Assembly: GCF_936925435.1 (NCBI RefSeq)
Contig: NZ_CAKZHQ010000014.1
Coordinates: 1-64,000, forward strand
Source of the DNA: an uncultured Ramlibacter sp.
GTDB lineage: Bacteria > Pseudomonadota > Gammaproteobacteria > Burkholderiales > Burkholderiaceae_C
DNA length: 64,000 bases
Direction of reading: 5' to 3'
Shown here: positions 29,932 through 56,071 of the stretch, piece by piece
Layout of the letters: the number at the start of each line of letters is the position of its first letter
How positions within the stretch are numbered: position 1 is the first letter of the stretch
Program-made: the position numbers and the translations under genes
The notes under the pieces: model-generated
Told to the model about the DNA's origin: nothing
The model's input: the letters and a program-made list of their open reading frames with translations, nothing else
The model's database searches: none

Positions 29932-29997
29932 GATTGTGCGAAGCCTGGCGAAAACCTAAGCCTCAATAAGCGCGGGAAATTCCGCCGTTTCGGTGCC
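29932..29997 (-). promoter_or_regulatory. Predicted FlhD4C2 box and class II promoter of fliLMNOPQR
   Basis: Read on the minus strand: half-site GGCACCGAAACGG, an 11-nt spacer, half-site GCGCTTATTGAGG, then CTTAGG (29955-29960), 17 nt, and the -10-like ACAATC (29932-29937), 23 nt before the fliL ATG. The half-sites are roughly inverted, and the spacing is the same as at fliF, fliE, flgA, flgB and flhB. Enteric FlhDC boxes likewise have two inverted half-sites with a 10-12 nt gap. Binding by FlhDC is inference. Confidence 0.6.
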
Positions 29998-30022
29998 CGC
30001 GGCCGTCTGGCGCGGGCGGATT

Positions 30023-31234
30023 TCAGGCGTAAAGGTCCAGCATGCCGCGCGTGGCGCGCACCGTCATGGTCCCGCTCACGCTGATGGCGCCGTTGCCGGC
30101 GCGGCCTTCGCCCGCCTGGGCTGCCAGGGCATTGCGGGCCTGCTGCTGGCTGGCTTGCGCCTGTTGCTGCTGCTGGCGGCCGTCCTGGCCCGCTGACACG
30201 CCGGCCTGGCCCAGGCTCATGCCCTGGCTGGCCAGCATGTCGCGCAGGGCCGGCAGGGCCTCGGCAATGCCGTCGCGGGTGGCGCTGTGGGCGGCCGAAA
30301 AGCTGATGTCGGCGGTCTGGGCGGTGACGCTCAGCTGGATCTGGATGGGGCCCAGCTCGGCCGGGTTCAGGCGCAGTTCGGCCTTTTGCATGCCGGCATC
30401 GACCATGAAGCGCACTTCGGCCGAGAGGTCGCCGGCAAAGGCCGGGTCCTGCGGCTGCGAGGCCAGGGTAGCCTGGTGGACCGCTGCGGCGAACGGCGCG
30501 CGGGAGGTGTCCACCGGCGAGGCAGGGGCCGCCAGGCTCAGGGGCGAGGCCTCGGGCAGGCGCGGGCTGTCGCTGCTGCTGTCGGCGCGGGCGGCATCGG
30601 CGCGCAGCCGGCTGACGATGTCGCCGAAGGCGGGGGCGGTCGCGGCCGCTGCGGCCGGGCCGCTGGCCGGCGCGGCGCTGGCGGTGGTGGCAGGCAGCAG
30701 GCCGGGGTCGTTCTGTTGTTTGGCGGGGCCGGCGGCGGCCAGGCTGACCGTGGCCGGGCTGGCGGCGGCGTCCTTGCGGGCCGGGCTGGCATCGGCCACG
30801 GCGGCAGCGGCCGGCGTGGCCGTGGCCGGCAGGCCGGGCAGCACACCGGCTTGCACGGCGCCGGGCTGGGCGGGTTGGGGCGACTGGGCGGTGCTGGCTT
30901 GGGGGGTCTGGGGCTGCTGGGCGGCGGCCAGTGTCGCAGCGACCAGCGTCGCATCCGGCAAGGCGAGCGGCGCCGGCAAGGCGGCCAGGGTGGCAGCGGC
31001 CAGTTCGCCCGGCAGGGCCGGTTCGGCGGCCAGCTCGGCGCTGCCATCCTGCGCGGCGGCCGGGGTGGCACCAGCGGCAGTCAGGCCCTCGAGCAGGGCG
31101 GCAAAGGCGTCGGCTGGGCCGTCGCCAGCGGCATTGGCGCCGCCGGGATTGGCGGCGCTGGTGCCGGCTGTGGCGGCGCCGGTGGTGGCGCTGGAAGCGG
31201 GGGCCACGCGGGCGGCGGGGGCGATGGTGCTCAT
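30023..31234 (-). CDS. fliK: Flagellar hook-length control protein FliK
   Basis: A 403-residue export substrate acting as the molecular ruler for hook length and the switch to late substrates. The first 280 or so residues are low-complexity, Ala/Pro/Gln-rich and probably disordered. The C-terminal domain has the conserved switch segment LRLNPAELGPIQIQLSV (about residue 291), followed by a Gln-rich run and an Ala-rich tail. It is the last gene of fliFGHIJK. The family is variable in sequence, and the C-terminal motif makes the call. Confidence 0.93.
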   Translation of the reverse strand: MSTIAPAARVAPASSATTGAATAGTSAANPGGANAAGDGPADAFAALLEGLTAAGATPAAAQDGSAELAAEPALPGELAAATLAALPAPLALPDATLVAATLAAAQQPQTPQASTAQSPQPAQPGAVQAGVLPGLPATATPAAAAVADASPARKDAAASPATVSLAAAGPAKQQNDPGLLPATTASAAPASGPAAAAATAPAFGDIVSRLRADAARADSSSDSPRLPEASPLSLAAPASPVDTSRAPFAAAVHQATLASQPQDPAFAGDLSAEVRFMVDAGMQKAELRLNPAELGPIQIQLSVTAQTADISFSAAHSATRDGIAEALPALRDMLASQGMSLGQAGVSAGQDGRQQQQQAQASQQQARNALAAQAGEGRAGNGAISVSGTMTVRATRGMLDLYA

Positions 31235-31245
31235 GGGTTTTGCTC

Positions 31246-31680
31246 CTAGGAGGCGCGGCGGCTGGCGCGCGCCGCAAATTCATCCGAGTCGCTCTGGGCG
31301 CGGCGCGACTCTTTCAACTGGTGGCTGGCGGCGCGGCGGCGCGCCAGGGTCTGGAACGCCATCAGGCGTTGTTGCTGTTCGATCAGGCGCTGCTGCTCGG
31401 CGTCGCAGCGCTCCTGGCGGCGCAGGCGCTCCAGGGTCTGCATGGCGATGGCCTCGTCCAGCCGCACCACGAAGGCCTGGTGGTCCAGCAGGCTCTGGGC
31501 GTCGGCCGGGCTGCCCCGGCTGCCGGGCGCGCGGGCCAGCAGCTCGGTGCGAAACTGCTGCAGGTTGCGCAGCGTGGCATCGGCCTGCTGCACCGCGACA
31601 GCGGCATCGCGCACCATGAGGGTCTGCTTGTCGCGCGCCTTCAGGGCGGTGTCGGTCAGCAGCGGCAGAACCTTGTCCAT
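31246..31680 (-). CDS. fliJ: Flagellar export chaperone FliJ
   Basis: A 144-residue, almost entirely helical, charged coiled-coil protein rich in Gln, Arg and Leu. FliJ is the central stalk of the FliI ATPase ring and a chaperone-escort protein. Position directly after fliI (sharing one base) supports the call, since FliJ sequences diverge strongly. The C-terminal end is basic (SDEFAARASRRAS). Confidence 0.9.
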   Translation of the reverse strand: MDKVLPLLTDTALKARDKQTLMVRDAAVAVQQADATLRNLQQFRTELLARAPGSRGSPADAQSLLDHQAFVVRLDEAIAMQTLERLRRQERCDAEQQRLIEQQQRLMAFQTLARRRAASHQLKESRRAQSDSDEFAARASRRAS

Positions 31681-33086
31681 CAGATGCCGCCGGCCTGTTG
31701 CAGCAGGATCTCCAGCGCCGCGATGCTCGAGGGCAGGGTCGCGCCTTCGCGCATGTCCTGCTGCAGCAAGGCAGCGATCTGCGGATACAGGCGGATCGCC
31801 AGGTCGGTCTGCATGTCGTTGCCCGCCACATAGGCGCCCACGGCGATCAGGTCGCGGTTGCGCTGGTAGCGCGCGTACATGGCCTTGAGGGCGCGGGCCA
31901 GCTTGAGGTGGCGTTCGTTGGTGACGTTGTGCATCACCCGCGAGATGGACTGCTCGATGTCGATGGCCGGGTAGTGGCCCTGCTCGGCCAGCTGGCGCGA
32001 CAGCACGATGTGGCCGTCCAGGATGGCGCGGGCGTTGTCGGCGATCGGGTCCTGCTGGTCGTCGCCCTCGGTCAGCACGGTGTAGAAGGCGGTGATCGAG
32101 CCGACGCCATTGAGGCCGTTGCCGGTGCGCTCCACCAGCTGGGGCAGGCGGGCAAACACCGAGGGCGGGTAGCCCTTGGTGGCCGGCGGCTCGCCCAGGG
32201 CCAGGGCCATCTCGCGGTGGGCCATGGCGTAGCGGGTCAGCGAGTCCATCAGCAGCAGCACGTTCTTGCCGCGGTCGCGGAAGTGCTCGGCCAGGGCTGT
32301 GGCGTAGTTGGCGCCCTGCATGCGCATCAGCGGCGGCAGGTCGGCCGGTCCGGCCACCACGACGGCGCGGCGCAGGCCTTCCTCGCCCAGGATGTCCTCG
32401 ACGAATTCCTTGACTTCACGGCCGCGCTCGCCGACCAGGCCGACGATGGTGACGTCGGCCTGCGTGTACTTGGCCATCATGCCCATCAGCACCGACTTGC
32501 CGACGCCGGAGCCGGCGAACAGGCCCAGGCGCTGGCCGCGGCCGACGGTGAGCATGGCGTTGATGGCGCGCACGCCCACGTCCAGCGGCTCGCGCACGGG
32601 GTCGCGCTCCATCGCATTGATCGGGTCGCGCGCCAGCGGCTCGGCACGGGTGCCGAACAGCGGGCCGCCATGGTCCAGCGGCTGGCCGGCCGGGTCGACC
32701 ACCCGGCCCAGCAGGGCGTCGCCCATGGGCAGGCGGCGCGCGTGCGGGTTGTGGCGGTTGGTGGCCGGCGTGATAACGCTCTGGCCATAGTTGAGGCCAT
32801 CGAAGCTGTAGGTCAGGGGCTGCACCTGCGCGCCCGGCGCCAGACCGTGGATGTCGCCGGTGGGCATCAGGAACAGGCGTCCCTTGGAAAAGCCCACGAC
32901 TTCGGCTTCGGTCGTGTGTTCGCCGTCGGTGACGCGGCAGACGCTGCCCAGCGGCACGCGCAGGCCGGTGGCCTCCATCACCAGGCCGGCCACGCGCACC
33001 AGCCGGCCGCTGATGGCCAGCGGCACCTGGGCCGACAGCAGGCCGCGGTGGGCCTGCAGGTGGGTGCCCATGCGGGCGGCGATCAT
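31680..33086 (-). CDS. fliI: Flagellar export ATPase FliI
   Basis: A 468-residue, F1-beta-like ATPase that drives substrate delivery to the export gate. Walker A AGSGVGKS is at residues 191-198, and the Walker B strand [13 protein letters not shown] and the [13 protein letters not shown] segment are intact. The length is typical. It overlaps fliH by 4 nt and shares a base with fliJ. Confidence 0.97.
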
Positions 33087-33793
33087 GGCAAGGGCTCCTC
33101 GTCGCGGCCCAGGCTGGCCATCACGGCCTGCCAGCGGGCTTCGAAGCTGGCGTCGGCGACGCCGGTGTCGGCTTCGACACGGCAGCCGCCGCGCTGCAGC
33201 GACTCGTCTTCGCTGACCTGCCAGCTGCGTGCCTGCGGCATGCCTTCCAGGTGCTGGCGCAGCATGGGGGCGTCGGCCGGGTTGACCCGCAGCTCCAGCT
33301 GCGAGGCGCCTTCGGCCAGCGCGCGCAGGGCTTCGGTGGCGGCGGGCAGCACGGAGCGCGGGTCGGTGTCCAGTTCACGCCGCAGCACCTGGCGGGCGAT
33401 GTCGATGGCCAGCGACACCAGGTCGCTGGCCACTTGGGATTCCAGCGCGGCGAGTTCGCCGCGGAAGCTGTCGACCAGGTCCTGCATCTGGCGCGCCACG
33501 TCGGCGGCCTTGCGCGACTGGAAGTCTTCCAGCGCCTGCGAGCCTTCGCTGTAGCCTTGCTCCAGGCCGGTGCGGGCACCTTGCTGGAAGCCGCGGCGCC
33601 GTCCCAGCGCATAGGCGGCACGGGCGGTCTCGTTGCCCAGGTCGCGCGCGCTCAGATGGCGCTGCGGCAGCGGGGTGACGGTGTCGAGTTCCGAGATGGC
33701 GAAGCTGGCCACGCCGCGCAACGCCTCGGCGGCGATGATGCGGCTGGACGACGCCGCGGCGCCGCGCAGCTGCTCCTCAGACAAAACTTTCAT
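33083..33793 (-). CDS. fliH: Flagellar assembly protein FliH
   Basis: A 236-residue regulator that binds FliI and docks it to FliN and FlhA. The central part (about 75-120) has the Gly-containing heptad-like pattern [19 protein letters not shown], a run of G-x-x-x-G-type repeats typical of FliH. The C-terminal domain resembles V/F-ATPase peripheral stalk subunits. It overlaps fliG by 17 nt and fliI by 4 nt. Confidence 0.92.
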
Positions 33794-34796
33794 CTGCGGC
33801 GCCTCCCAGAACGATCTCGCCTTCGTCGGCCAGGCGGCGGACGATCTTGAGGATTTCCTTTTGCTGGGTTTCGACCTCGGACACGCGCACCGGGCCGCGT
33901 GTCTCCAGGTCCTCGCGCAGGGCTTCGCCGGCGCGCATGCTCATGTTGGTGAAAATCTTCTCGCGCATTTCCGGCTCGGCGCCCTTGAGCGCCACCACCA
34001 GCACGGCGTTGTCGACTTCGCGCAGCATCATCTGGATGGCCTTGCTGTCCAGCTTGAGCAGGTCGTCGAAGGTGAACATCTGTTCCTCGATCTTGTCCGC
34101 CAGGTCGGCGTCACCGTCGCGGATGGAGCCGAGCACCGACATCTCGAGGGTCGAGCCCAGGTAGTTGAGGATTTCGGCCGCCGTCTTGGGGCCGCCCAGC
34201 GGTGTCTTGCGCACGCGATCGCCGCCGGCGAGCACCTTGGACAGCACGTCGTTGAGTTCCTTGAGTGCGTTGGGCTGGATGCCGTCCAGGGTGGCGATGC
34301 GCAGCACCACGTCATTGCGGTTGCGCTCTTCCAGGGCGGACAGCACGCCCGAGGCCTGGTCGCGGTCCAGGTGGACCAGGATGGAGGCGATGATCTGCGG
34401 GTGTTCGTTGCGGATCAGCTCGGCCACGGCCGCTGCGTCCATCCACTTGAGGCTTTCGATGCCGCTGACGTCGCGGCCCTGCACGATGCGGTCGATCAGC
34501 AGGCCGGCCTTGTCGTCGCCCAGCGCCAGCTTGAGCACATTGCTCACATAGGCGCCGGTGTCGCTGACCAGCGAGCGCTGCAACTGCACCTGCTCCTGGA
34601 AGCGGGCCAGCACGTCGTCGAACTGGTCGTCGGCCACGGTGGTCAGGCGCGCCATGCGCTCGCCCAGGCGTTGCACTTCCTTGGGTGCCAGATGCTTGAA
34701 CACATCGGCGGCGCTTTCCTCGCCCAGGGCGAGCATCAGGATGGCGCTGGAAGTGACGCCCACATCTTCAACGGTAATAGAGGTGCTTACGGCCAT
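33777..34796 (-). CDS. fliG: Flagellar motor switch protein FliG
   Basis: A 339-residue rotor protein that contacts the MotA stator. It contains the N-terminal FliF-binding domain (ILMLALGEESAADVFKHL), the middle domain with EHPQIIASILVHLD (the EHPQ motif), and a C-terminal torque domain whose charged helix includes a DDLLKLDSKAIQMMLREVD stretch. The length is close to the enteric 331. It lies 15 nt after fliF. Confidence 0.97.
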   Translation of the reverse strand: MAVSTSITVEDVGVTSSAILMLALGEESAADVFKHLAPKEVQRLGERMARLTTVADDQFDDVLARFQEQVQLQRSLVSDTGAYVSNVLKLALGDDKAGLLIDRIVQGRDVSGIESLKWMDAAAVAELIRNEHPQIIASILVHLDRDQASGVLSALEERNRNDVVLRIATLDGIQPNALKELNDVLSKVLAGGDRVRKTPLGGPKTAAEILNYLGSTLEMSVLGSIRDGDADLADKIEEQMFTFDDLLKLDSKAIQMMLREVDNAVLVVALKGAEPEMREKIFTNMSMRAGEALREDLETRGPVRVSEVETQQKEILKIVRRLADEGEIVLGGAADESFV

Positions 34797-34811
34797 GGGA
34801 ATCTCGCGGGT

Positions 34812-36524: not shown

Positions 36525-36548
36525 GGGGCGGTGGGGAGTGCGGACGCC

Positions 36549-36614
36549 ATTGTTGGCCGGACCGCGCCAAACCTTAGCGCCGAAATACGGCCCATTCCCG
36601 GCCCTATTCGCTGC
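36549..36614 (-). promoter_or_regulatory. Predicted FlhD4C2 box and class II promoter of fliFGHIJK
   Basis: Minus strand: half-site GCAGCGAATAGGG, 11-nt spacer, half-site CCGTATTTCGGCG, CTAAGG (36572-36577), 17 nt, -10-like AACAAT (36549-36554), 24 nt before the fliF ATG. The half-sites read as inverted copies (GAATAGGG against CCGTATTTC), close in pattern to enteric FlhDC half-sites with their central AAATA/TATTT. A second box for fliE lies 68 bp away on the other strand. Confidence 0.62.
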
Positions 36615-36681
36615 AGCAGCCCACCCGCCGCGCCGCCACAGTCACACCCCAGACACTTCGGCCGGACGGGGCCGGACCTGA

Positions 36682-36747
36682 GCGCCGATAAGCGCTGTAT
36701 TTGCGCCTCTTTTCGTCGCTCAAGATCGCCGCCGCGCCGCTAAAGTC
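36682..36747 (+). promoter_or_regulatory. Predicted FlhD4C2 box and class II promoter of fliE
   Basis: Plus strand: half-site GCGCCGATAAGCG, 11-nt spacer, half-site CCTCTTTTCGTCG, CTCAAG (36719-36724), 17 nt, -10-like AAAGTC (or TAAAGT one base earlier), 33 nt before the fliE ATG. The layout equals that of fliF, fliL, flgB and flhB. The GCCGATAA within it resembles a sigma-28 -10 box, but there is no TAAAG 14 nt upstream. Confidence 0.55.
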
Positions 36748-36780
36748 TTGTCAACACATACCCCCTACAGGAGCCCTATC

Positions 36781-37110
36781 ATGGAAATCAACAAGACTGC
36801 CGCCGTCTCCGGCCTGCCAACCCCCTTGCTCGATGCGCTCAAGCGCAACGCAGCAGCCCAGCGCGCCAGCCAGCCGGCCCAGGAGTCGCAATCCTTCACC
36901 GGCGCCATGGACAAGGCCCTGCGCGCCGTCAGCGCCACCCAGGAAGATGCATCGCGCATGGCCGAAGCCTTCCAGATGAACCCGGCTGGTGTCAGCCTGG
37001 AGCAGACCATGGTGGCCTCGCAGAAATCCCAGATCGCTTTCCAGTCGGCCCTGCACGTGCGCAACCGCCTGGTGTCCGCCTACAGCGACATCATGAACAT
37101 GCAGGTCTGA
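36781..37110 (+). CDS. fliE: Flagellar hook-basal body adaptor FliE
   Basis: A 109-residue protein joining the MS ring to the rod and the first substrate exported. The C-terminal half has the conserved ASQKSQIAFQSALHVRNRLV and ends in AYSDIMNMQV, as FliE does. The ATG at 36781 follows AGGAG by 7 nt; the frame is open further up but the ribosome site decides the start. It is a single-gene unit between its own promoter and a strong terminator, divergent from fliF, as in enteric bacteria. Confidence 0.95.
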   Translation: MEINKTAAVSGLPTPLLDALKRNAAAQRASQPAQESQSFTGAMDKALRAVSATQEDASRMAEAFQMNPAGVSLEQTMVASQKSQIAFQSALHVRNRLVSAYSDIMNMQV

Positions 37111-37187
37111 GGACCCGCCGCGTTCAACGCGGCCCCTGTTTCAGTTCCGCTCCAAGGCTCCTGTTTCGCCCGGAGCGGACGCTGTCT

Positions 37188-37212
37188 GCCGCGCACTCTG
37201 CGCGGCTTTTTT
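37188..37212 (+). terminator. Intrinsic terminator of fliE
   Basis: GCCGCGC, loop ACTCT, GCGCGGC, then six T. This is a textbook Rho-independent terminator 78 nt after the fliE stop. It lies just 12 nt from the end of the convergent fliT. Confidence 0.88.
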
Positions 37213-37223
37213 GCGTGCGCTGC

Positions 37224-37559: not shown

Positions 37560-37561
37560 GC

Positions 37562-39519: not shown

Positions 39520-40725
39520 TTAATTGCGCAGCAGGGTCAGCACTTGCTGGGGCAGCTGGTTGGCTTGCACCAGCATGGCGTTGCCGGCCTGCTGCAGGAT
39601 CTGGGCTCGCGTCATGGCTGCGGTTTCGGCCGCGAAGTCGGTGTCCATGATGCGCGAACGGGCGGCCGTGGTGTTTTCCGAGGCGATCTGGATGTTGGCG
39701 ATCGTGCTCTCAAAGCGCGACTGGACGGCGCCCAGGGTGGCGCGCGCGCTGTTGATCTCTTCCAGGGCCTTGTCGCACTGCAGCATGGCCAGCTGGGCGG
39801 CCTCATAGCTGCCGACGTTCAGCACGATCATGCTGACGTCGGTGGAGGTGGAGGCGGCCTCGTCGCCGGGGGGCAGGGGGGGGACGGTGGCGCTGAAGGT
39901 GAAGCCCGTGGTGTCGACGGTGGCGGTTGCCCCCACCGCGGCCAGCTTGAAATCGGCCGAGGAGGTCATGACGATGGAGTTGGTCGTTGCGTCCAGGTAG
40001 GCGCTCACGCCGTGCAACGCGGAATCCTTGTTGATCGCATCGAGCATCTGGGTCTGGCGCTCTGTCTTAGTGAGGGCGAGGGGGATGGCATCGAGTTTGA
40101 AGGTCTTGGTGCCAACCGTGATCTCCAGGTCACCAGCGGTGATGGCGGTGAGGTCGGTGAAGTTGAGGGCGTCTGTGACGTCGGCACCGGTGATCGCCGG
40201 GGCTTTGATGGTGCCCATGCTGGTCAGCTGCGCATCGGTGAGCTTGTCGATGGTGATGGATTCGCCGGCGTTGGCACCGACCTGGAAGCGGGCCGAGGCG
40301 AAGCTGCCGTCCAGCAGTTTGGTGCCGTTGAAGTTCGTGCCCAGGGCCATGCGGTCGATTTCCTGCTTGAGCTGGATCACTTCGGCTTGCAGGGAGACGC
40401 GGTCGGTGGCGTTGTTGGTGGCGTTGGACGATTGCACGGCCAGTTCGCGCATGCGCTGGACCATCTCGCCAACCTTGCCCAGCGCGCCTTCGGCGGTTTG
40501 CGCCAGGGAGACGCCGTCATTGGCGTTGCGGGCGGCGACGTTCAGGCCGCGCACTTGGGAGTTCATGCGTTCGGCAATGGCCAGGCCGGCGGCGTCGTCG
40601 CGGGCGCTGTTGACGCGCAGGCCGCTGGACAGGCGCTGGATCGAGGTCGCCAGGGACGACTGCGAGCCATTGAGGTTGCGCTGGGTGTTCAGCGAGGTGA
40701 TATTGGTATTGATGACGGAAGGCAT
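39520..40725 (-). CDS. fliC: Flagellin, proximal copy (contains a cysteine)
   Basis: A 401-residue flagellin with conserved D0/D1 ends (MPSVINTNITSLNTQRNL at the start, QANQLPQQVLTLLRN at the end) and a variable middle (about 170-290) with a VPPLPPGDE stretch. It closely resembles the neighbouring flagellin outside the middle. Unusually, it has a cysteine in the C-terminal D1 region (LAMLQCDKALEEI, codon 39775-39777), where the other copy has ADDAL; flagellins almost always lack cysteine. Its upstream sigma-28-like site has an imperfect spacing. It may be a minor or differently expressed subunit. Confidence 0.95.
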   Translation of the reverse strand: MPSVINTNITSLNTQRNLNGSQSSLATSIQRLSSGLRVNSARDDAAGLAIAERMNSQVRGLNVAARNANDGVSLAQTAEGALGKVGEMVQRMRELAVQSSNATNNATDRVSLQAEVIQLKQEIDRMALGTNFNGTKLLDGSFASARFQVGANAGESITIDKLTDAQLTSMGTIKAPAITGADVTDALNFTDLTAITAGDLEITVGTKTFKLDAIPLALTKTERQTQMLDAINKDSALHGVSAYLDATTNSIVMTSSADFKLAAVGATATVDTTGFTFSATVPPLPPGDEAASTSTDVSMIVLNVGSYEAAQLAMLQCDKALEEINSARATLGAVQSRFESTIANIQIASENTTAARSRIMDTDFAAETAAMTRAQILQQAGNAMLVQANQLPQQVLTLLRN

Positions 40726-40837
40726 TGGGACTCCAATCGAAAACTGGTTTTCAACCGGATTGCCTTGCGAGACCGCAGCTGCGTCCTAACGCAACTGCGC
40801 CGCCGGCACCCGGGGCTCACGCCAGTCCTGGGTCTCA

Positions 40838-40866
40838 GGATCGGCGCATTCCCGTACTGTGCTTGA
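40838..40866 (-). promoter_or_regulatory. Weak sigma-28-like promoter of the proximal flagellin gene
   Basis: On the minus strand, TCAAG (40862-40866) is followed by 16 nt and GCCGATCC (40838-40845), about 113 nt before the ATG at 40725. The usual gap is 14 nt and the -10 normally ends in AA, so this site departs in both respects. It lies downstream of the terminator of the distal flagellin gene, where a promoter is needed. Confidence 0.4.
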
Positions 40867-40895
40867 GGCGGCGGCAAGGCAAACCACGGAAAAGA

Positions 40896-40932
40896 GGGCG
40901 GCTTGCCGGCTATTTCTGCCGGCAAGCCGCCC
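40896..40932 (-). terminator. Terminator between the two flagellin genes
   Basis: A perfect 14-bp stem: GGGCGGCTTGCCGG at 40896-40909 facing CCGGCAAGCCGCCC at 40919-40932, with a 9-nt loop. On the minus strand it is followed by TCTTTTCC. It lies 26 nt after the stop of the distal flagellin gene and should separate the two flagellin transcripts. Confidence 0.85.
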
Positions 40933-40957
40933 CGGTTCCGGGGAGACCTTGCGAAAA

Positions 40958-42133
40958 TTAACGCAGCAGCGACAGAACTTGCTGGGGCAGCTGGTTGGCC
41001 TGCGACAGCATGGCGGTGCCGGCTTGCTGCAGGATCTGGGCGCGGGTCATGTTGGCCGTTTCAGCGGCGAAGTCTGTGTCCATGATGCGCGAGCGGGCAG
41101 CCGTCACGTTCTCCGCGGTGATCTGGATGTTGGCGATCGCGTTCTCGAAGCGGCTTTGCACGGCGCCCAGCTTGGCGCGGCTGGTGTTGATCAGCTTCAA
41201 GGCGTCGTCGGCCTGCTGGATGGCCAGCTGGGCGCCGTCCCGGGTAGTGACGGACAGCGCGGACATGTTGACGGCGCCGCCGGCGACGCTGGCGGCGCCA
41301 TCAGCGAAGCCCGTATTGGTGGCGGAGGCGGCGCCGGCGCCTGCAAACGAAATCGTGAATTCGGAAGCGGAGGAGATGACAACAGCGTCGGACACCGTGT
41401 CCACCGTGGCGCTCACGCCGGACTTAAATGCTTGAGCGTTGATCGCATCGGCGATTTGGTTCGCGCGGGCCTTTTGGGTGAGGGCCGCGGGGGCTGCAAT
41501 TGCATCAAGTTGGTAGCTGACGACGGGGCCGGGGAGGGTGCCGACATTGATCGTAATGTCGCCGGTGGCAAGGGCTTCAAAGGTGGTGATGGCGCCGCCG
41601 GTGGCCGCGTTCGTCTTGGTTTGGATGCTGGACAGCTGCGTGTTGGTGATCTGGTCGATCTCGATGGATTGGCCGGCATCGGAGCCGACCTGGAATTTTT
41701 CTTTGCTGAAGGTCCCGTCCAGCAGCGCTTTGCCGTTGAACTGGGTGGTCTTGGCAACGCGGTCGATTTCTTCCTTCAGCTGGTCCACTTCAGCCTGCAG
41801 AGCTTCGCGGTCGCTAGTGCTGTTGGTGGCGTTGGACGATTGCACGGCCAGTTCGCGGATGCGCTGGACCATTTCGCCAACCTTGCCCAGGGCGCCTTCA
41901 GCGGTCTGCGCCAGGGAGACGGCGTCGTTGGCGTTGCGGGCAGCGACGTTCAGGCCGCGCACTTGAGCACCCATGCGCTCGGCGATGGCCAGGCCGGCGG
42001 CGTCGTCACGGGCGCTGTTCACGCGCAGGCCGGTCGACAGGCGCTGGATGGAGGTGCTCAGAGCAGCTTGCGAGCTGCCCAGGTTGCGTTGCGTGTTGAG
42101 CGACGGGATGTTGGTATTGATAACGGAAGGCAT
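40958..42133 (-). CDS. fliC: Flagellin, distal copy (perfect sigma-28 promoter)
   Basis: A 391-residue flagellin with standard D0/D1 ends (MPSVINTNIPSLNTQRNL; QANQLPQQVLSLLR) and a different, Ala/Gly/Thr-rich central region (about 170-285). It contains no cysteine. The ATG at 42131-42133 was chosen because MPSVIN is the family start; five extra codons upstream are not flagellin-like. Behind a consensus FliA promoter and before a strong terminator, it is probably the main filament subunit (inference). Confidence 0.96.
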   Translation of the reverse strand: MPSVINTNIPSLNTQRNLGSSQAALSTSIQRLSTGLRVNSARDDAAGLAIAERMGAQVRGLNVAARNANDAVSLAQTAEGALGKVGEMVQRIRELAVQSSNATNSTSDREALQAEVDQLKEEIDRVAKTTQFNGKALLDGTFSKEKFQVGSDAGQSIEIDQITNTQLSSIQTKTNAATGGAITTFEALATGDITINVGTLPGPVVSYQLDAIAAPAALTQKARANQIADAINAQAFKSGVSATVDTVSDAVVISSASEFTISFAGAGAASATNTGFADGAASVAGGAVNMSALSVTTRDGAQLAIQQADDALKLINTSRAKLGAVQSRFENAIANIQITAENVTAARSRIMDTDFAAETANMTRAQILQQAGTAMLSQANQLPQQVLSLLR

Positions 42134-42235
42134 GTTGCAGATCCTCAAGAATCGGCTTCCGACATGGAAGCCCTGGGTTTAGACACCGCGTCTCTATCTG
42201 TCGCGGCCCTGGCGGGAGAATCCCGTTGCCATTCT

Positions 42236-42262
42236 TTATCGGCGGGGTGGCGGCGGGCTTTA
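42236..42262 (-). promoter_or_regulatory. Consensus sigma-28 (FliA) promoter of the distal flagellin gene
   Basis: Minus strand: TAAAG (42258-42262), exactly 14 nt, GCCGATAA (42236-42243). Both boxes match the FliA consensus at every position. It lies 103 nt before the ATG at 42133, leaving a long leader. FliA (52299) and FlgM (54815) are both encoded in the window. Confidence 0.9.
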
Positions 42263-46722: not shown

Positions 46723-46788
46723 CCACCCAATAGGGGGCTTTTTCCCCCTTTCTTCGGGACTTAAGTTTTGCCCATCGGCAAAACAATG
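46723..46788 (+). promoter_or_regulatory. Predicted FlhD4C2 box and class II promoter of flhBAFG-fliA
   Basis: Plus strand: half-site CCACCCAATAGGG, 11-nt spacer, half-site CCTTTCTTCGGGA, CTTAAG (46760-46765), 17 nt, -10-like ACAATG (46783-46788), 29 nt before the flhB ATG. The half-sites are the least symmetric of the set, but hexamer and spacings match. It would make fliA FlhDC-dependent through this long operon. Confidence 0.58.
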
Positions 46789-50056: not shown

Positions 50057-51528
50057 ACGTCAGACGTTTTGTTGGCAGGAATGCCCGTGAAGCCATTGCA
50101 CAGGCGCGTGGCGCCTGGGGCGACCAGGCCGTGGTGCTGTCCAACCGTCCCATCCCGGGCGGTGTCGAGATCCTGGCCATGGAAAGCGCCGAGGCGCCCA
50201 TGCACAGCAACCGCGCCAAGACGGCGCAGCCGGCGCCCAAGGGCACGGCCGCTGCGGTCGAGGCCAAGCGCCCGGCCGGCTCGGTCGAGCCCATGAGCAC
50301 GCTGTCGTTCCAGCAGTTCGTGCGCGAGCGCCAGCGTCTGGATGCGCAAGGCGCCGAGGCGAAGGCAGAGCCCGTGGCCGAGGCCGTGGCTGCTCCTGCT
50401 GCCGCCGTGGCGACCAAGGCCACGCCGGCGCGCCGCAAGCCCCCGGTGGAGCCGGGCCGCTTTGCCGCCGAACAACTCAACGACGAAGTGGCGCAGCAAG
50501 CCCAGTCCGAGACCGGCACGCCGGCCTCGCCCGCCTTCCAGGCCGGCGCCAGTGCCTTTGCCGCCGTGGCCCAGGCCGGGCAGGGCGAGGAAATGCTGGC
50601 CGAACTCAAGTCCATGCGCGGCATGATCTCCTCGCAGCTGGCCAGCCTGTCGTGGTTCGACACCGTGCGCCGCAACCCGGCCCAGACCCAGCTGCTGCGC
50701 CTGATGATCTCCAACGGCTTCTCGCCCGCGCTGGCGCGCCAGCTGGTGCACCGGCTGCCCGATGGCCGCGATGAGGCCCAGTCGGGCCAGTGGCTGCTGG
50801 ACGTGCTGGCCAAGAACCTGCACTGCGCCGACAGCGAATCCATCGCCAACAAGGGCGGCGTGTTCGCCCTGGTCGGCCCGACCGGCGCAGGCAAGACCAC
50901 CACCACCGCCAAGATCGCCGCCAACTTCGCGATGCAGCACGGCGCCGCCTCGGTGGGCCTGATCACGGTGGACACCTACCGCATGGGCGCATCCGACCAG
51001 CTCGGCGCCTTTGGCAAGATCCTGAACATCCCGGTCCACATGGCGCGCGACAGCGCCGCGCTGGTCGATCTGCTGAACCTGTTCGAGAAGAAGAAGCTGG
51101 TGCTGATCGACACCGTGGGCGTGGGCCAGCGCGACAGGCGCCTGACCGACCTGTTCGCCGCGCTGCCGGCCGAGCGCATCAACCGCCTGCTGGTGCTCAA
51201 TGCCAGCGCCCAGGCCGAGACCCTGGAAGAAGTGGTGCAGGCCTATGGCACTGGCGCCGGTGGCCGCTGCGTCATCTCCAAGCTGGACGAGGCCGTCAAG
51301 TGCGGTGGCGTCATCGACGTGGCGATCCGCCACCAGCTGCTGGTCGAGGGTTTTGCCAACGGCCAGCGTGTGCCGGAAGACTGGCACGCCGCGCGCGCCA
51401 AGCTGCTGGTGCAAAAGGCCCTGCTCAGGCAGCCCAATTCCATCTTCACTCCCGATGACACCGAACTGGGCCTGATGCTGACGGCACCGCCGGCCGCTGG
51501 GCGCGTTGCCGGAGGCATGCGTGCTTGA
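50053..51528 (+). CDS. flhF: SRP-like GTPase FlhF
   Basis: A 491-residue GTPase related to Ffh and FtsY that sets the site and number of polar flagella. A long Ala/Pro-rich N-terminal region (to about 170) precedes an N domain and a G domain with Walker A GPTGAGKT (275-282), VDTYRMGASDQL and LIDTVGVGQRD. The presence of flhF suggests polar flagella even though FlhDC is the master regulator. Its end overlaps the flhG start. Confidence 0.95.
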   Translation: MNVRRFVGRNAREAIAQARGAWGDQAVVLSNRPIPGGVEILAMESAEAPMHSNRAKTAQPAPKGTAAAVEAKRPAGSVEPMSTLSFQQFVRERQRLDAQGAEAKAEPVAEAVAAPAAAVATKATPARRKPPVEPGRFAAEQLNDEVAQQAQSETGTPASPAFQAGASAFAAVAQAGQGEEMLAELKSMRGMISSQLASLSWFDTVRRNPAQTQLLRLMISNGFSPALARQLVHRLPDGRDEAQSGQWLLDVLAKNLHCADSESIANKGGVFALVGPTGAGKTTTTAKIAANFAMQHGAASVGLITVDTYRMGASDQLGAFGKILNIPVHMARDSAALVDLLNLFEKKKLVLIDTVGVGQRDRRLTDLFAALPAERINRLLVLNASAQAETLEEVVQAYGTGAGGRCVISKLDEAVKCGGVIDVAIRHQLLVEGFANGQRVPEDWHAARAKLLVQKALLRQPNSIFTPDDTELGLMLTAPPAAGRVAGGMRA

Positions 51529-52264
51529 CCAGGGCCTGGACCAGGCCGCCGGGCTGCGCCGCATGGTGGCGCAGCCGGGCCTGAGCCTGATGGCGTTCCC
51601 GGTTGCCGCCAGCGATGGCGGCCTGTGGATCGCCCAGCTGGCGCATTCGCTGCGCGCGCTGGGCATGCGCCCGGTGGTGGTCGATGCCAGCGGTGGCGGC
51701 GTGACGCGCGCCTTCGGCCTCAAGCCCCGCCACGACCTGCTCGACATGATGCAGGGCGTGCGCCAGTTCGACGAGGTAGCACTGGCCACGTCCGACGGCA
51801 TCCACGTGCTGCGCGCCGACCGCGGCGTCGAGGCTTTCGTGGCCTCGGGCGCGCCGGCCAGCCGCTTGTTCGGCGGCTTCGCCGGCCTGTCGCACGGTTT
51901 TGACGTGCTGCTGCTGGCGATGCCGGCCGGCGAACTGGCCTGCCTGGCCTCGCCCGCCACGGCCTTGCCGGTGATTGCGCTGGACAGCGGCGACGACGGC
52001 CTGGTCCATGCCTATGCCACCGTCAAGCAACTGGCGACGGGATTTGGCTACAGCCGCTTTACCGTCGTCACCCAGGGTGCGACCAGCGCCGTGCAGGCCC
52101 GCCAGGCCCACGCCCGGCTGGCCACCGCCGCACGCTCGTTCCTGAACTGCGAGGTGCAGCTGGCTGGCTGGCTGCCGCGCCCGCCCGCCGATTCCGCACC
52201 GGCGCTGGCCGAACTGGCCCAGAGCCTGATCCATACCGCGGCCACACCCCTGGTCCTGCACTGA
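51521..52264 (+). CDS. flhG: FlhG/FleN-like MinD-type protein with degenerate ATPase motifs
   Basis: A 247-residue protein placed exactly where flhG sits. The start is the GTG at 51521 with GGAGG 5 nt upstream, inside the end of flhF; it yields the N-terminal motif DQAAGLRRM, the conserved FlhF-activating DQAxxLR helix. The fold matches MinD/ParA proteins, but the Walker A loop (normally GKGGVGKT) reads PVAASDGG with no lysine, and the Walker B aspartate is replaced (VLLLAMPAG). It therefore probably cannot bind or hydrolyse ATP normally, while it may still bind FlhF. The VVVDAS strand end is kept. Confidence 0.85.
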   Translation: MLDQGLDQAAGLRRMVAQPGLSLMAFPVAASDGGLWIAQLAHSLRALGMRPVVVDASGGGVTRAFGLKPRHDLLDMMQGVRQFDEVALATSDGIHVLRADRGVEAFVASGAPASRLFGGFAGLSHGFDVLLLAMPAGELACLASPATALPVIALDSGDDGLVHAYATVKQLATGFGYSRFTVVTQGATSAVQARQAHARLATAARSFLNCEVQLAGWLPRPPADSAPALAELAQSLIHTAATPLVLH

Positions 52265-52298
52265 CGTGCCGGACGAAGACGATCCCAAGGAGCAATCC

Positions 52299-53021
52299 AT
52301 GTCCATGTACACCGCCAAAGGCACGATCGACGGCCAACCCGGCATCGAGACCTACCTTCCCCTGGTGCGCCGCGCCGCCGCCAAGATGATCGGCCGCCTG
52401 CCCGCCAACGTCGAGATGGACGACCTGGTACAGGCCGGCATGATCGGCCTGATGGATGCGATGCAGCGCTACGAACAGGGCCATGGCGCCCAGTTCGAGA
52501 CCTTCGCCATGCAGCGCGTGCGCGGCGCCATGCTCGACGAGCTGCGCGGCACCGACTGGGTGCCCCGCTCGGTGCGCAAGAGCCAGCGCGACATCGCCGG
52601 CGCCGTGCACGCGCTGGAGCACCAGCTGCACCGCGCGCCCACCGACTCGGAAATCGCCACCCAGCTGGCCGTGCCGCTTCAGGACTACCACGACATGCTG
52701 ACCGACGTGCGCAGCGCGCAGCTGGTCTACACCGACGACTACGAAGCCTCCGGCGACGACACCCACTACCTGGACCGCCACCTGCCGGTGGACGAGCGCA
52801 CCGACCCGGCCGCCCAGCTGGCCGACCGGCGCTTCCGCGAATCCCTGGTGGCCGCCATCGGTGACTTGCCCGAACGCGAGCAGTACGTGATGAGCATGTA
52901 CTACGAGCACGACATGAACCTCAAGGAAATCGCCGCCGTGCTGGGCGTGACCGAGTCGCGCGTGTGCCAGCTGCACAGCCAGTCGGTGGCCCGCCTGCGC
53001 GCCCGCGTGAAGAACTGGTGA
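52299..53021 (+). CDS. fliA: Flagellar sigma factor FliA (sigma-28)
   Basis: A 240-residue sigma-70-family factor for late flagellar and chemotaxis genes. Region 2 (LPLVRRAAAKMIGRLPANVEMDDL in parts, AGMIGLMDAMQRY), region 3 (SVRKSQRDI) and region 4 (LPEREQYVMSMYYEHDMNLKEIA, ESRVCQLHSQ) are all present. AAGGAG lies 7 nt before the ATG at 52299, so the longer upstream frame is rejected. It is last in the flhB operon, before a hairpin. It is antagonised by FlgM (54815). Confidence 0.97.
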   Translation: MSMYTAKGTIDGQPGIETYLPLVRRAAAKMIGRLPANVEMDDLVQAGMIGLMDAMQRYEQGHGAQFETFAMQRVRGAMLDELRGTDWVPRSVRKSQRDIAGAVHALEHQLHRAPTDSEIATQLAVPLQDYHDMLTDVRSAQLVYTDDYEASGDDTHYLDRHLPVDERTDPAAQLADRRFRESLVAAIGDLPEREQYVMSMYYEHDMNLKEIAAVLGVTESRVCQLHSQSVARLRARVKNW

Positions 53022-53063
53022 GCGTTGCGGCCTGTGTGGCCGCACGTGAAACGCCAAGCCAAG

Positions 53064-53084
53064 CAGCCCGCCTCGTGCGGGCTG
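53064..53084 (+). terminator. Hairpin terminator after fliA
   Basis: CAGCCCGC, loop CTCGT, GCGGGCTG form a perfect 8-bp stem 43 nt after the fliA stop, followed by TTGGC. The T-run is short, so the strength is uncertain. Confidence 0.6.
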
Positions 53085-53138
53085 TTGGCATTGGGGCTTG
53101 CAGTGTCCAGGCCCGGGCAGGTCGTGCAGAATCTGGCC

Positions 53139-53273
53139 ATGGGCCTTCTCCTCATGCGCTGGGCCAGCCTCACCGCCCTGGTGGACCGCCACGGCCTGGG
53201 CGAGGCAGTCAAGCTTGCATTCGTGGCGGCCTGCGCTCTGGCCGGTGGGCTGGCCGCGCTTTGCCTGGACTAG
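53139..53273 (+). CDS. Possible 44-residue membrane peptide
   Basis: A short frame in the fliA/dmeF gap starting at ATG 53139 (MGLLLMRWASL) with one hydrophobic helix (LAFVAACALAGGLAALCLD). There is no clear ribosome site and I know no homologue. Its only support is the hydrophobic composition and the lack of any other use for this 291-nt gap. It may be noncoding. Confidence 0.25.
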   Translation: MGLLLMRWASLTALVDRHGLGEAVKLAFVAACALAGGLAALCLD

Positions 53274-53312
53274 CTGCGGTGCGCCCGTCCCTATCGGCGG
53301 TTTAAAGGCCGC

Positions 53313-54263
53313 TCAGGCCGGGACGAAGGCGTCGGCCGCTGTCACGCGGTTGACCTCCACCGAGATGTGGACCAGTTCGTCGTGCACGCGCAGCAGGCGC
53401 TTGAAGTCGTCGGGCTGGGCGTCGGCGGCCGTGACCAGCGAGACGATGCAGGCGTATTTGTCCTTGCCGACGCGCCAGACGTGCAGGTCGCAGATGCTGG
53501 CCGGCACCGGGCCTGCGGCGATGGCCTCGTGGATCTCCTGCACCACGGGGGCGTCCATTTCGGCATCCAGCAGCACGCGCCCGGTGTCGCGCAGCAGTCC
53601 CACGGCCCAGACGGTGACCAGCACGGCGCCGACCATGCCCATCACCGGGTCCAGCCAGTTGGCGCCCCAGAGTTTGCCGCCGGCCAGGGCGGCGATGGCC
53701 AGCACCGAGGTGGCGGCGTCTGCCAGCACATGCAGGTAGGCCGAGCGCAGATTGAGGTCGCCGTGGGCATCACCGTGGCCATGGTGGTGTCCGTGGCCGT
53801 GGTGATCGTGCTGGTGGCCGCCGCGCAGCAGCCAGGCACAGGCCAGGTTGACAGCCAGGCCCGCCAGGCCGATGGCGATGGCGGCGTCGTACTGGATCGG
53901 CTCCGGTGCCAGCAGGCGCGCGACCGACTGCCACAGCATGAGGGCTGCGACCAGCAGCAACAGGATGGCGCTGCTGTAGCCGCCCAGCACCTCGATCTTC
54001 CAGGTGCCGAAGGCGAAGCGGCCGTTGCCAGCCAGGCGCCGTGCCGCCGCATAGCTGGCAGCCGCCAGGCCCAGCGCCAGCACATGCGAGCTCATGTGCC
54101 AGCCATCGGCCAGCAGGGCCATGGAGTTGAAAGCCCAGCCGCCGGCGATCTCGGCCAGCATCATCAGCGCCGTCAGCGCCATGGCCCACAGGGTGGCGCG
54201 CTCGGCCAGCGGGTTGCCGGCATCGAAGACGTGGGAATGGCGCCAGGCGTCGAAGCTGGTCAT
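53313..54263 (-). CDS. dmeF: Cation diffusion facilitator, DmeF-type Co2+/Ni2+ exporter
   Basis: A 316-residue CDF efflux protein. The N terminus HSHVFD resembles the DmeF subfamily opening. Six helices follow, with metal-site pairs H/D in ALLADGWHMSSH and VLADAATSV. Between helices 4 and 5 is a strongly His-rich loop (HQHDHHGHGHHHGHGDAHGD) for metal capture. The C-terminal cytoplasmic domain (about 225-316) has ICDLHVWRVG. The start was set at the ATG at 54261-54263; the 50-codon upstream extension is not CDF-like. It is unrelated to motility; no metal regulator is adjacent. Confidence 0.88.
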   Translation of the reverse strand: MTSFDAWRHSHVFDAGNPLAERATLWAMALTALMMLAEIAGGWAFNSMALLADGWHMSSHVLALGLAAASYAAARRLAGNGRFAFGTWKIEVLGGYSSAILLLLVAALMLWQSVARLLAPEPIQYDAAIAIGLAGLAVNLACAWLLRGGHQHDHHGHGHHHGHGDAHGDLNLRSAYLHVLADAATSVLAIAALAGGKLWGANWLDPVMGMVGAVLVTVWAVGLLRDTGRVLLDAEMDAPVVQEIHEAIAAGPVPASICDLHVWRVGKDKYACIVSLVTAADAQPDDFKRLLRVHDELVHISVEVNRVTAADAFVPA

Positions 54264-54416
54264 GGGAAGGCAATCTCTGAAAAACAGGCTGCCAGTATGG
54301 CAACAGCGCGCAAAGCGGTGGGGGCGGCGCGCCTGTCCCTGGGTTTTTGCTCCTGAAACAGGAGCGATAGAGGATGATCTGGCGCGGGCTGGCGGCCTGT
54401 TTGGCCGCTGCAATGC

Positions 54417-54437
54417 CGGAAAAGGCCGATCAGGCCT
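54417..54437 (-). terminator. Weak hairpin at the end of flgN
   Basis: On the minus strand AGGCC, loop TGATC, GGCCT is followed by TTTCC; the stem overlaps the flgN stop codon. Two more hairpins lie further downstream (54392-54408 and 54349-54365). Together they could end the flgAMN transcript before dmeF. Confidence 0.4.
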
Positions 54438-54810
54438 GGACGAAGCCCCGGCCGCGCACGGCGGGGGCGGTCAGCATGCCGGCGGCGGCGTAGACGCGGT
54501 TGGACTGGGCGCTTTGCAGCAGGGGGTCGCCCTGGCCCAGGGCATCGATGGCGCGTTGCACGTCCAACTGGCGGCGGTTGAGCATGTCCTGGTTGGCGCG
54601 GGCGCGGCCGTGCAGCGCGCGCAGGCGGTCCTGCTGCTCGGGTGTGGGCAGGCGGGTGATGCTGGCGCGCAGGGCGGCCAGCCGGGAATTGAGGATGACC
54701 GACAGCCCGGGCAGAGCGTCGGCCTGGCCATCGAGCACGGCTTGCGCCTGCTGGTCCAGCAGGTAGGGCAGCGCATCGAGCGCGGCGTCCAGCGCGGTGC
54801 TGCTGGCCAT
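54430..54810 (-). CDS. flgN: Flagellar chaperone FlgN
   Basis: A 126-residue helical protein rich in Leu, Ala, Gln and Arg, chaperone for the hook-filament junction proteins FlgK and FlgL. Sequence conservation is weak, but position directly after flgM (4-nt gap), size, and the helical LHGRARANQDMLNRRQLDV segment fit. flgK, its main client, begins at 63283. Confidence 0.85.
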   Translation of the reverse strand: MASSTALDAALDALPYLLDQQAQAVLDGQADALPGLSVILNSRLAALRASITRLPTPEQQDRLRALHGRARANQDMLNRRQLDVQRAIDALGQGDPLLQSAQSNRVYAAAGMLTAPAVRGRGFVQA

Positions 54811-54814
54811 GGCG

Positions 54815-55120
54815 TCAGACCGAGCGGGGGCTCAGCAGGGCGGCGGCGTCGGCGATCAGGCGGTCCGCGATGGCTTCGGGGTTGACGCTGAAGCGCCCTT
54901 CACGGATGGCCTGGCGGATGGAGTCGACCTTGGCGCTGTCGAAGTCGGCGGACCCAGCCTGCTGGCTGATGGCCGTGCCAGCGGCCGAGACCGTGGCCTG
55001 GTCGATGGCGGCAATGCCGGCAACGGCCGGGATGGCCGAAGTCGTGGAGGAGCGCACATTAGCGCGCGCCGCGATGTCGCTAGAGACAAGGGGGGTGTCG
55101 GGTTTTGAGCCAATTTTCAT
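54815..55120 (-). CDS. flgM: Anti-sigma-28 factor FlgM
   Basis: A 101-residue, mostly disordered protein that holds FliA until it is exported through the finished hook. The N terminus MKIGSKPD and the FliA-binding C-terminal half (KVDSIRQAIREGRFSVNPE, about 64-82) match the family well. The start is the ATG at 55118-55120. Upstream is a sigma-28-like promoter, so FlgM can be remade during late expression, as in enteric bacteria. Confidence 0.93.
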   Translation of the reverse strand: MKIGSKPDTPLVSSDIAARANVRSSTTSAIPAVAGIAAIDQATVSAAGTAISQQAGSADFDSAKVDSIRQAIREGRFSVNPEAIADRLIADAAALLSPRSV

Positions 55121-55157
55121 AGGGTTCTCCGAGGGCCGGAAGCCAGCCTGCACCCAT

Positions 55158-55184
55158 TATTCGGCGCGGCTGCGGGAAACTAAA
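55158..55184 (-). promoter_or_regulatory. Sigma-28-like promoter of flgMN
   Basis: Minus strand: TTTAGTTT (55177-55184), 11 nt, GCCGAATA (55158-55165), 37 nt before the flgM ATG. Compared with TAAAGTTT-11-GCCGATAA, the spacing is exact and the departures are two in each box. It lies in the flgA-flgM gap. Confidence 0.55.
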
Positions 55185-55243
55185 GGCCAAAAACAGGGCT
55201 TTTTGCGCTTCTGTTCGGGTTTTGTGACTTTGGGCCGGTGCCG

Positions 55244-55939
55244 TTACAGCGCCACATCGACATGGCGGCCTTCCCGGGCCACCCCCAGCAGGATCTTGCC
55301 CAGGTCGGTGCGCACCCGCACGGTCTGGCCCTCGCCGGCGGCGCCCAGGGCCTGGCCGGTGGCGGCCACGGCAAAACCGGGGCCCGAAATGCGCAGCCGC
55401 ACCGGGTCGCCGGACTGCACCACGCTGGTCACTCGGACCATGTCCGCGCGGATCGCCTGGCCGGGGCTCAGGGCGCGGGCCAGGGTGCGCCCGGCCAGCT
55501 GCTTGGGGTCGCGCGCCAGAGCGGCGGGCTCGCGGGTGAGTTCGATTTCCTGCTCGCGCACATCCTGCTCGGACAGCACGGTGCCGGAGGCCAGGGGCGT
55601 GGCGGCGACCAGGGCGCGGCCCCAGACGGTGACGGTGACAGGCAGCAGGACGGTCCAGGTGGCGCCGTCGGTGCAGCGCAGGCCCAGCGAGCTGCGGCCC
55701 CACAGGCGGCCATTGGCCGGTACGAAGGGTTCGCTGCGCCTGCAGGGCGCCAGCGAGTTCTGAGCCTCCAGGCTGCCGAGCCTGACATCGAAACGGCTGA
55801 CCAGGTCGCCGCCGGCGGCAGCGACCTGCTGCGAGACAAAGCTGCGCAGGGCGTTCTCATCGAACACGGCCTGGGCGCGCACGGGCGCGGCGGCGGCCAG
55901 GGCGAGCAGGGTGGCGGAAAGGATGCGGGCGAGCGACAT
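55244..55939 (-). CDS. flgA: P-ring assembly chaperone FlgA
   Basis: A 231-residue periplasmic protein that assists FlgI ring formation. The signal peptide MSLARILSATLLALAAAAP ends near VRA (residue 22). The C-terminal SAF-like domain (about 100-231) contains PLASGTVLSEQDVR and LSPGQAIRADMV. The start at the ATG 55937-55939 keeps the signal peptide at the N terminus; the open upstream frame runs through the promoter. It diverges from flgB across a shared predicted FlhDC box. Confidence 0.93.
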   Translation of the reverse strand: MSLARILSATLLALAAAAPVRAQAVFDENALRSFVSQQVAAAGGDLVSRFDVRLGSLEAQNSLAPCRRSEPFVPANGRLWGRSSLGLRCTDGATWTVLLPVTVTVWGRALVAATPLASGTVLSEQDVREQEIELTREPAALARDPKQLAGRTLARALSPGQAIRADMVRVTSVVQSGDPVRLRISGPGFAVAATGQALGAAGEGQTVRVRTDLGKILLGVAREGRHVDVAL

Positions 55940-55976
55940 GGGTAACAGACAAAGAGGGCAGGGCTGCCGGTGGAGG

Positions 55977-56071
55977 AACTTTAGGCCTGGCCGGTGCCGC
56001 TCCAGCGCCGCAAAAGGCGCGCAAAGCCGCGCTTTATCGGCGCTTAAGTTTTCCGCCCCGGATTCCATACT
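55977..56071. promoter_or_regulatory. Shared divergent FlhD4C2 box with class II promoters for flgAMN and flgBCDEFGHIJ
   Basis: One pair of half-sites, CGCCGCAAAAGGC (56006-56018) and CGCTTTATCGGCG (56030-56042), separated by 11 nt, is flanked on both sides by promoters. Rightward: CTTAAG (56043-56048), 17 nt, CATACT (56066-56071) toward flgB. Leftward on the minus strand: CTGGAG (56000-56005), 17 nt, AAAGTT (55977-55982) toward flgA. In enteric bacteria the divergent flgA-flgB pair is likewise FlhDC-controlled. Binding is inference. Confidence 0.65.

Follow-up and report, generated by a model that had tools for sequence, protein, structure and literature searches.

Which regulator switches on the flagellar operons of an uncultured Ramlibacter sp. 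is the question raised by positions 1-64,000 of contig NZ_CAKZHQ010000014.1, a stretch that makes up about 1.4% of the 4.49-Mb genome and is termed the window in the following. Promoter-like sites are found upstream of fliL, fliF, fliE, flgA, flgB and flhB, all of them identified by hidden Markov model (HMM) searches, and each of the six pairs of a CTTAAG-like and a -10-like hexamer listed in the original prediction is indeed present. Judged by sequence, these sites can with high confidence be assigned as class 2 flagellar promoters that depend on FlhD4C2, in a bacterium resembling the Comamonadaceae. The proposal that they contain FlhD4C2 boxes is supported by the concentration of matches in the window, by conservation, by the tracking of flhC, to which there are exceptions, and by the recovery of the promoters known from Escherichia coli; these observations are joined by the likeness of two neighbouring copies of the box.

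The architecture of the sites differs in several points from what had first been read. The six sites represent five boxes, because those of flgA and flgB are a single box read on opposite strands, the right half of the flgB site being the reverse complement of the left half of the flgA site. A layout of two inverted 13-nt half-sites separated by 11 nt had been proposed; the halves are inverted only weakly, with 4, 6, 4, 9, 6 and 9 matches of 13 in the register assumed, and the trained models point to a core of GAAWAG-x-GG, N10 and CC-x-CTWTTC. The CTTAAG-like hexamer is not a separate element; it forms the outer end of the promoter-proximal half-site. This outer element is CTTxG-like in a family-level model, GATTG-like in an earlier order-level model, and conserved mainly on the promoter side. 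CTTAAG as such was considered as an order-wide element and dropped, as inspection by eye found none at the expected place in 190 loci on both strands. It is kept near the window organism, at flgB and flhB in genome G200 (L195) and at flhB in L196 and L197. The distance of exactly 17 nt from hexamer to -10 holds for fliF and flgB, while it is 16 nt for flhB, fliE, fliL and flgA when the -10 is set in the register xAxxxT. Both distances are common among 91 family-level sites (16 nt in 54, 17 nt in 37).

Three models were used to score the sites. The order model consists of three blocks (left half, right half and -10) with variable gaps and was started from the published E. coli consensus AAATAGCG-N10-12-CGCTATTT. 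Out of 160 genomes drawn, 52 contained FlhC over the cut-off; the window's own genome and G030, which had no FlgB, FliE or FlhB match, were dropped, and training was performed on the regions upstream of flgB, fliE and flhB in the remaining 50, with the window excluded and the best 65% of the 150 regions kept per round. The model converged on (G/A)AATAG-type halves, a spacing in the N10-12 range and an xATAAT -10. The six window sites score 16.5 to 28.2 bits compared with a threshold of 9.3 bits, the 99% level of 760 dinucleotide shuffles. Weaker or chance-like matches of this model also occur in the window, e.g. at 52480(-), 42464(+) and 56540(-). The family model is built from 91 sites outside the window that had been chosen by the earlier order-level model with both strands scanned. 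In the window, 12 of its matches reach 20 bits or more, while the top score in 30 simulated 64-kb first-order Markov windows was 14.6 and none reached 16 bits, which argues against chance as the source of the window sites. Finally, a sequence-only profile of 45 sites, excluding the window and G200, was run over whole genomes. Scoring was limited to 150 first-look candidates in each genome, such that its counts are lower bounds, and a box read both ways counts twice. At E ≤ 10 it yields at least 29 matches in the window organism's genome, and 12 of them, at nine boxes, fall within the window; a scatter without regard to flagellar operons is thus not what is seen.

On the minus strand, the fliL promoter (29933-29997) comprises a box at 29954-29997 and a -10 CACAAT at 29933-29938, with 21.3 bits in the family model, 16.5 bits in the order model and a genome-wide profile E of 5.4e-4. 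The fliF promoter (36549-36614, minus strand; box 36571-36614, -10 AACAAT at 36549-36554) reaches 35.9 and 28.2 bits and is the best profile match of the whole genome (E 2.6e-6). Facing the other way, the fliE promoter (36682-36746, plus strand) has its box at 36682-36725 and a -10 TAAAGT at 36741-36746; it scores 30.7 and 26.2 bits with a genome-wide profile E of just 0.014, and fliE likely starts at the ATG near 36781 rather than at the TTG at 36748. For flhB (46723-46787, plus strand; box 46723-46766, -10 AACAAT at 46782-46787) the values are 29.0 and 23.8 bits and E 0.0036. The shared box serves flgA on the minus strand (55978-56043, -10 TAAAGT at 55978-55983; 24.5 and 20.5 bits, E just 0.57 genome-wide) and flgB on the plus strand (56006-56071, -10 CATACT at 56066-56071; 26.9 and 25.5 bits, E 3.1e-4). 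Pairs of opposite-strand matches at the flgA-flgB box are found in 28 of 30 flgM loci of the family.

The conservation in related genomes that the original prediction called for was borne out. In five-fold cross-validation by genome, the order model recovered sites at flhB in 46, flgB in 41, flgA in 40, fliF in 36 and fliE in 31 of the 50 FlhC-containing genomes. Counting either strand, all three trained loci carry a site in 32 of these genomes, two loci in 13 and one locus in 5; no genome is devoid of sites. As a partial control, the strand at flhB that points away from the gene gave 14 of 50; this clearly exceeds the 1% level and is partly explained by the near symmetry of the box, which allows it to be read in reverse. 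Flagellated genomes of the order lacking FlhC over the cut-off formed a comparison set of 28, some of which carry weak FlhC-like proteins below it. Here, matches were found at 2 of 18 loci for flgB, 1 of 18 for flgA, 2 of 12 for fliE, 1 of 12 for fliF and 1 of 10 for flhB; the far strand at flhB gave 2 of 10. G023 alone accounts for one match in each of the five promoter counts. The same picture emerges from 28 genomes of the family from which no profile site was taken: the 12 with FlhC over the cut-off contain at least 87 matches with E ≤ 0.05 (per genome at least 6, 6, 8, 4, 11, 9, 9, 12, 0, 6, 15 and 1) versus at least 5 in the 16 without. Among these 16, G174 yields a weak FlhC-like match (50 bits), and three possess flgM, namely G183 with two matches and G190 and G207 with none.

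A further line of evidence comes from E. coli K-12, 31.5 kb of which were scanned with the earlier order-trained model, because the order model began from the E. coli consensus and would have been circular there. The start consensus of the earlier model had been derived from seeds that included the six window sites, while its training set contained no window site. With positions read against the annotation, the top five matches all belong to known promoters (fliA 25.8, fliD 22.2, flgA 20.9, fliF 20.9 and flgB 19.5 bits), followed more weakly by fliL (13.8), flhB (13.7) and fliE (11.2). Thus, all eight E. coli FlhDC promoters are recovered at 11.2-25.8 bits; these correspond to fliD and the seven operons generally accepted as FlhDC targets, as given in PMC4183435. 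At a cut of 8 bits, the scan also returned six unrelated matches (8.3-11.3 bits) and four reverse reads of known boxes.

Several observations weigh against the assignment of the sites as FlhD4C2-dependent promoters. Of the six sites, that of fliL is the weakest, and genome-wide an E below 0.01 is attained by just five of the nine boxes in the window (fliF, flgB, fliL, the box at 4939 and flhB). Matches of the same quality also lie outside the window at C48:116569 (read both ways), C51:128746 and the terminator-like C23:126494. The E. coli fliE promoter scores no better than two unrelated matches in that scan (11.3 and 11.1 bits), and motif and in vitro binding in E. coli do not always equal in vivo binding, according to PMC4183435. 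Good boxes without an FlhC found by our searches are present in G023 (order) and in G194 and G203 (family), possibly as a consequence of assembly gaps or recent loss of the gene. The converse is seen in the FlhC-containing G209, which lacks both a box at fliE-fliF and any match at E ≤ 0.05, and in G212, with one match; G209 (L332, L328) may have an FlhDC of other specificity or a cluster of other origin. Lastly, intrinsic terminators resemble the motif, and strong folding is seen for the flgA-flgB box itself (z -3.1 and -3.3).

Terminators were considered for the six sites and rejected: the five boxes tested, flgA sharing that of flgB, form stems of 6-8 bp and no T run follows the stem, folding energy alone not separating the two classes. 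Were the sites promoters of sigma-28 (FliA) instead, the occurrence of the sigma-28 -10 GCCGATAA in the left half-sites of fliE and flgA (GCGCCGATAAGCGC and GCGCCGATAAAGCG) and a one-mismatch sigma-28 pattern at 36657-36681 (-), overlapping the fliE box on the opposite strand, would find an explanation. Yet exact matches to TAAAG(TTT)-N11-GCCGATAA occur only elsewhere than at the six sites, four in all, namely at fliC1, at motA, upstream of the receptor gene at 11821 and at 57007(-); the flgA left half lacks a TAAAG-like -35 at sigma-28 spacing, and the element conserved downstream is a -10 of the sigma-70 type whose distance hardly varies, leaving sigma-28 a highly improbable candidate. Bacteria with polar flagella commonly place such operons under a sigma-54 activator of the FleQ/FlrC type; TGGCACG-N4-TTGCW with up to two mismatches, however, has three matches against 19 expected by chance and none at any of the six promoters, and we regard this scheme as the least probable of all.

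Some other regulator, inherited together with flhDC, might bind the box instead: co-occurrence with flhC cannot alone name the binder, and boxes persist in G023, G194 and G203, where no FlhC was detected. Against it stands the finding that the motif recovers the E. coli FlhD4C2 promoters and that the trained consensus agrees with the AAYGSSNNAAATAGCG-N10-12-CGCTATTTNNSSCRTT published for them, as quoted in PMC9962212; we therefore deem a different binder very unlikely, if slightly less so than the two sigma factor schemes.

If FlhDC is the activator, FlhD4C2 would bind a box of two half-sites with the core GAAWAGnGG-N10-CCnCTWTTC and an outer CTTxG or CTTWAG on the promoter-proximal side, the box centre lying some 50 bp upstream of the expected transcription start. 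Once bound, FlhD4C2 would recruit sigma-70 RNA polymerase to a recognizable, xAxAAT-like -10 in promoters lacking a good -35. Given the near symmetry of the box, one copy could serve promoters on both sides, as at flgA-flgB. The conservation of the outer element on the promoter side fits a contact beside the -35 position. We infer binding, activation, start points and the role of the outer element from sequence comparison.

The proposed activator is encoded within the window, as had been stated: flhD and flhC were both found by HMM (NF002783 and NF009365; 42460-43456, plus strand). The encoded FlhC shares 45% identity with that of E. coli, and Cys139, Cys142, Cys162 and Cys165, the zinc cysteines, are invariant among four aligned sequences. 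Its nearest named relatives stem from the metagenome-assembled genome (MAG) HGW-Betaproteobacteria-3, a Comamonadaceae MAG, two Ramlibacter species and a Burkholderiaceae MAG, and the family and order names used here follow from these relatives. Several genomes, G067, G172 and G174 among them, encode weak FlhC-like proteins that fall short of the family cut-off, some of them beside a true FlhC. Genome G023 has strong boxes at flgA-flgB, fliE-fliF and flhB (L014, L048, L083), and the congeneric G067 has FlhC. Further genes identified by HMM in the window comprise fliM, fliI, fliH, fliG, fliS, fliD, two flagellin genes, motA, cheY, cheZ, flhA, flhF, fliA and flgM, with cheA and receptor genes near the window start. 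A 252-residue frame between flhF and fliA (51506-52264, plus strand), a position often held by flhG, has no Pfam or NCBIfam match.

The region between fliE and fliF features an unusual arrangement. Two boxes are present in the window, within a 105-bp tandem duplication (36555-36747) whose copies begin at 36555 and 36660. The left flank outside the boxes is identical at 16 of 20 positions, reached by 12 of 200000 random pairs, and the score of the right flank was reached by 11 of 20000, figures that are flattering as the flanks were chosen after the alignment had been seen. The alignment score of the whole region is not decisive by itself, because a comparable alignment is obtained for the fliE and flgA-flgB regions (36 against 42). 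In the family, represented by 30 of the 35 genomes with fliE, a single box is the rule (29 of 30 loci, readable both ways in 24; none in G209), and across the order one box occurs in 36 of 50 genomes, none in 12 and two in 2. Most likely, the tandem duplication yielded the two boxes of the window, one nearest each gene.

Boxes at flgM, cheY-cheA and a hybrid kinase gene are candidate targets absent from the first reading. Its own class 2 promoter appears to precede flgM (identified by TIGR03824 and PF04316) at 55156-55221 on the minus strand, with a -10 AATAAT at 55156-55161 and the flgM ATG near 55120; it scores 28.0 bits in the family model and, with 35.9 bits, is the best order-model match in the window. 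A homologue resides in G200, 89 nt before the flgM match, which makes G200 the only one of 30 family flgM loci with a clear flgM box; G196 (L213) has a weak one (13.6 bits) with a poor -10. The cheY-cheA box (9172-9237, plus strand, -10 CACAAT) is situated upstream of a response-regulator gene at about 9301, encoding a receiver domain, and of cheA, identified by HMM, at 9685; it reaches 24.9 bits in the family and 25.6 bits in the order model, with a profile E of just 0.75 genome-wide. This box also reads backwards (9150-9196, minus strand; 22.6 bits in the order and 13.5 in the family model) and then faces a gene for a protein with receiver and histidine-kinase domains (8040-9116, minus strand). 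A third box with -10 CATAAT (4930-4994, plus strand; 23.4 bits in the family and 14.9 in the order model, E 0.0016) is located upstream of a PAS hybrid histidine kinase gene at 5030-7012.

Outside the window, the profile found at least 17 matches, most of which were left unannotated. One of them (C9:2209) is upstream of a chemoreceptor gene; C51:128746 (L326) precedes a 97-residue open reading frame without domain match that is followed by a chemoreceptor gene, and the C48 match precedes an HDOD gene whose longest frame starts before the -10. Downstream of the C49 match (L274) no domain was found. The match at C3:588 is not a receptor promoter; the receptor site at that locus is C3:977(-), detected by matrix scan. 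The matches on C23, C10 and C5 (L269, L270, L280) fold as terminator-like hairpins.

The flagellin genes make up an ambiguous case. Two of them are arranged in tandem (39520-42148, minus strand), the second, fliC2, being directly followed by fliD. Upstream of fliC1 an exact TAAAG-N14-GCCGAT match (42238-42262, minus strand) indicates a class 3 sigma-28 promoter; no match to this pattern with up to one mismatch was found for fliC2. Before fliC2-fliD, a box-like site (40856-40933, minus strand; box 40878-40921, -10 CACAGT at 40856-40861), termed 40897(-) below, scores 27.3 bits in the family model. We count it as ambiguous rather than as a clear target because it overlaps a strong hairpin (40895-40933) with a 16-bp stem followed by CTTTT, which could be the fliC1 terminator. 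Just downstream lies a sigma-28-like CTCAAG...GCCGATCC with a spacer about 2 nt too long. Corresponding sites occur before the second flagellin gene in L196 and L197 and before fliD in L198 and L199. Among 30 flagellin loci (one flagellin each from 30 of 67 genomes with a match, of mixed origin), nine show a match scoring 14 bits or more in the 350 nt upstream; one or more of the nine, L231 included, are terminator-like. L240 and L232, and also L306 from G204, are clear boxes lacking a strong stem. We consider the chances about even that the 40897(-) site is an intrinsic terminator whose A-rich and T-rich arms resemble half-sites. The stem with its T-rich tail and the terminator-like folding of L269, L270 and L280 are in line with this, while in G204 (L306) the box precedes fliC-fliD after what seems, by eye, to be a separate terminator.

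Should the site be genuine, a wider role of FlhDC comes into view, in which it directly drives fliC2-fliD, flgM, cheY-cheA and some chemoreceptor genes. Part of the filament and of chemotaxis would then be expressed early, outside the sigma-28/FlgM checkpoint, with fliC1 remaining class 3, and the bidirectional fliE-fliF box would have been duplicated so that the two operons could be tuned apart. We put this forward tentatively and think it rather doubtful, rating it lower because of the sigma-28-like sequence with longer spacer before fliC2.

How, then, do these promoters compare with known systems? Closest among solved structures to both FlhC (3.7e-54) and FlhD (2.8e-21) of the window is 8j56, probably FlhDC of Cupriavidus necator, a species different from the window organism. 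FlhDC of Cupriavidus necator has reportedly been studied structurally with promoter DNA, and binding of FlhDC to promoter DNA in betaproteobacteria may thus already have been shown; a genome-wide consensus is not known to us from that study. Burkholderia glumae, also a member of the Burkholderiales, has flagellar genes activated by FlhDC; the passages available from PMC3885665 report FlhDC-dependent expression, with a binding site not among them. We recognized no betaproteobacterial FlhDC box consensus in the open literature searched, a scope that most subscription papers fall outside. FlhDC boxes are well mapped in enterics, and the model presented here adds a betaproteobacterial consensus from 50 genomes of the order that carries over to E. 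coli, the boxes being, by their sequence, of the known FlhD4C2 kind in a new lineage.

The class 2 promoters of E. coli and Salmonella share with those of the window the half-site core, the 10-12 bp spacer, the outer element, the target operons and a sigma-70-like -10 with a poor -35; in E. coli, class 2 activation needs the C-terminal domain of the alpha subunit, as described in PMC9962212. A single box that our model reads both ways is likewise present in E. coli at flgA-flgB and at fliE-fliF. In contrast to the enteric systems, the half-sites of the window are G+C-rich, the outer element is CTTWAG (CTTxG-like in the family) instead of SCRTT, and fliA, which follows flhB-flhA-flhF, has no match upstream on its strand. 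Extra boxes at flgM and cheY-cheA and two boxes at fliE-fliF also set the window apart, and the model accordingly predicts changes in the regulon: a class 2 flagellin, a promoter of its own for flgM and a split fliE-fliF box.

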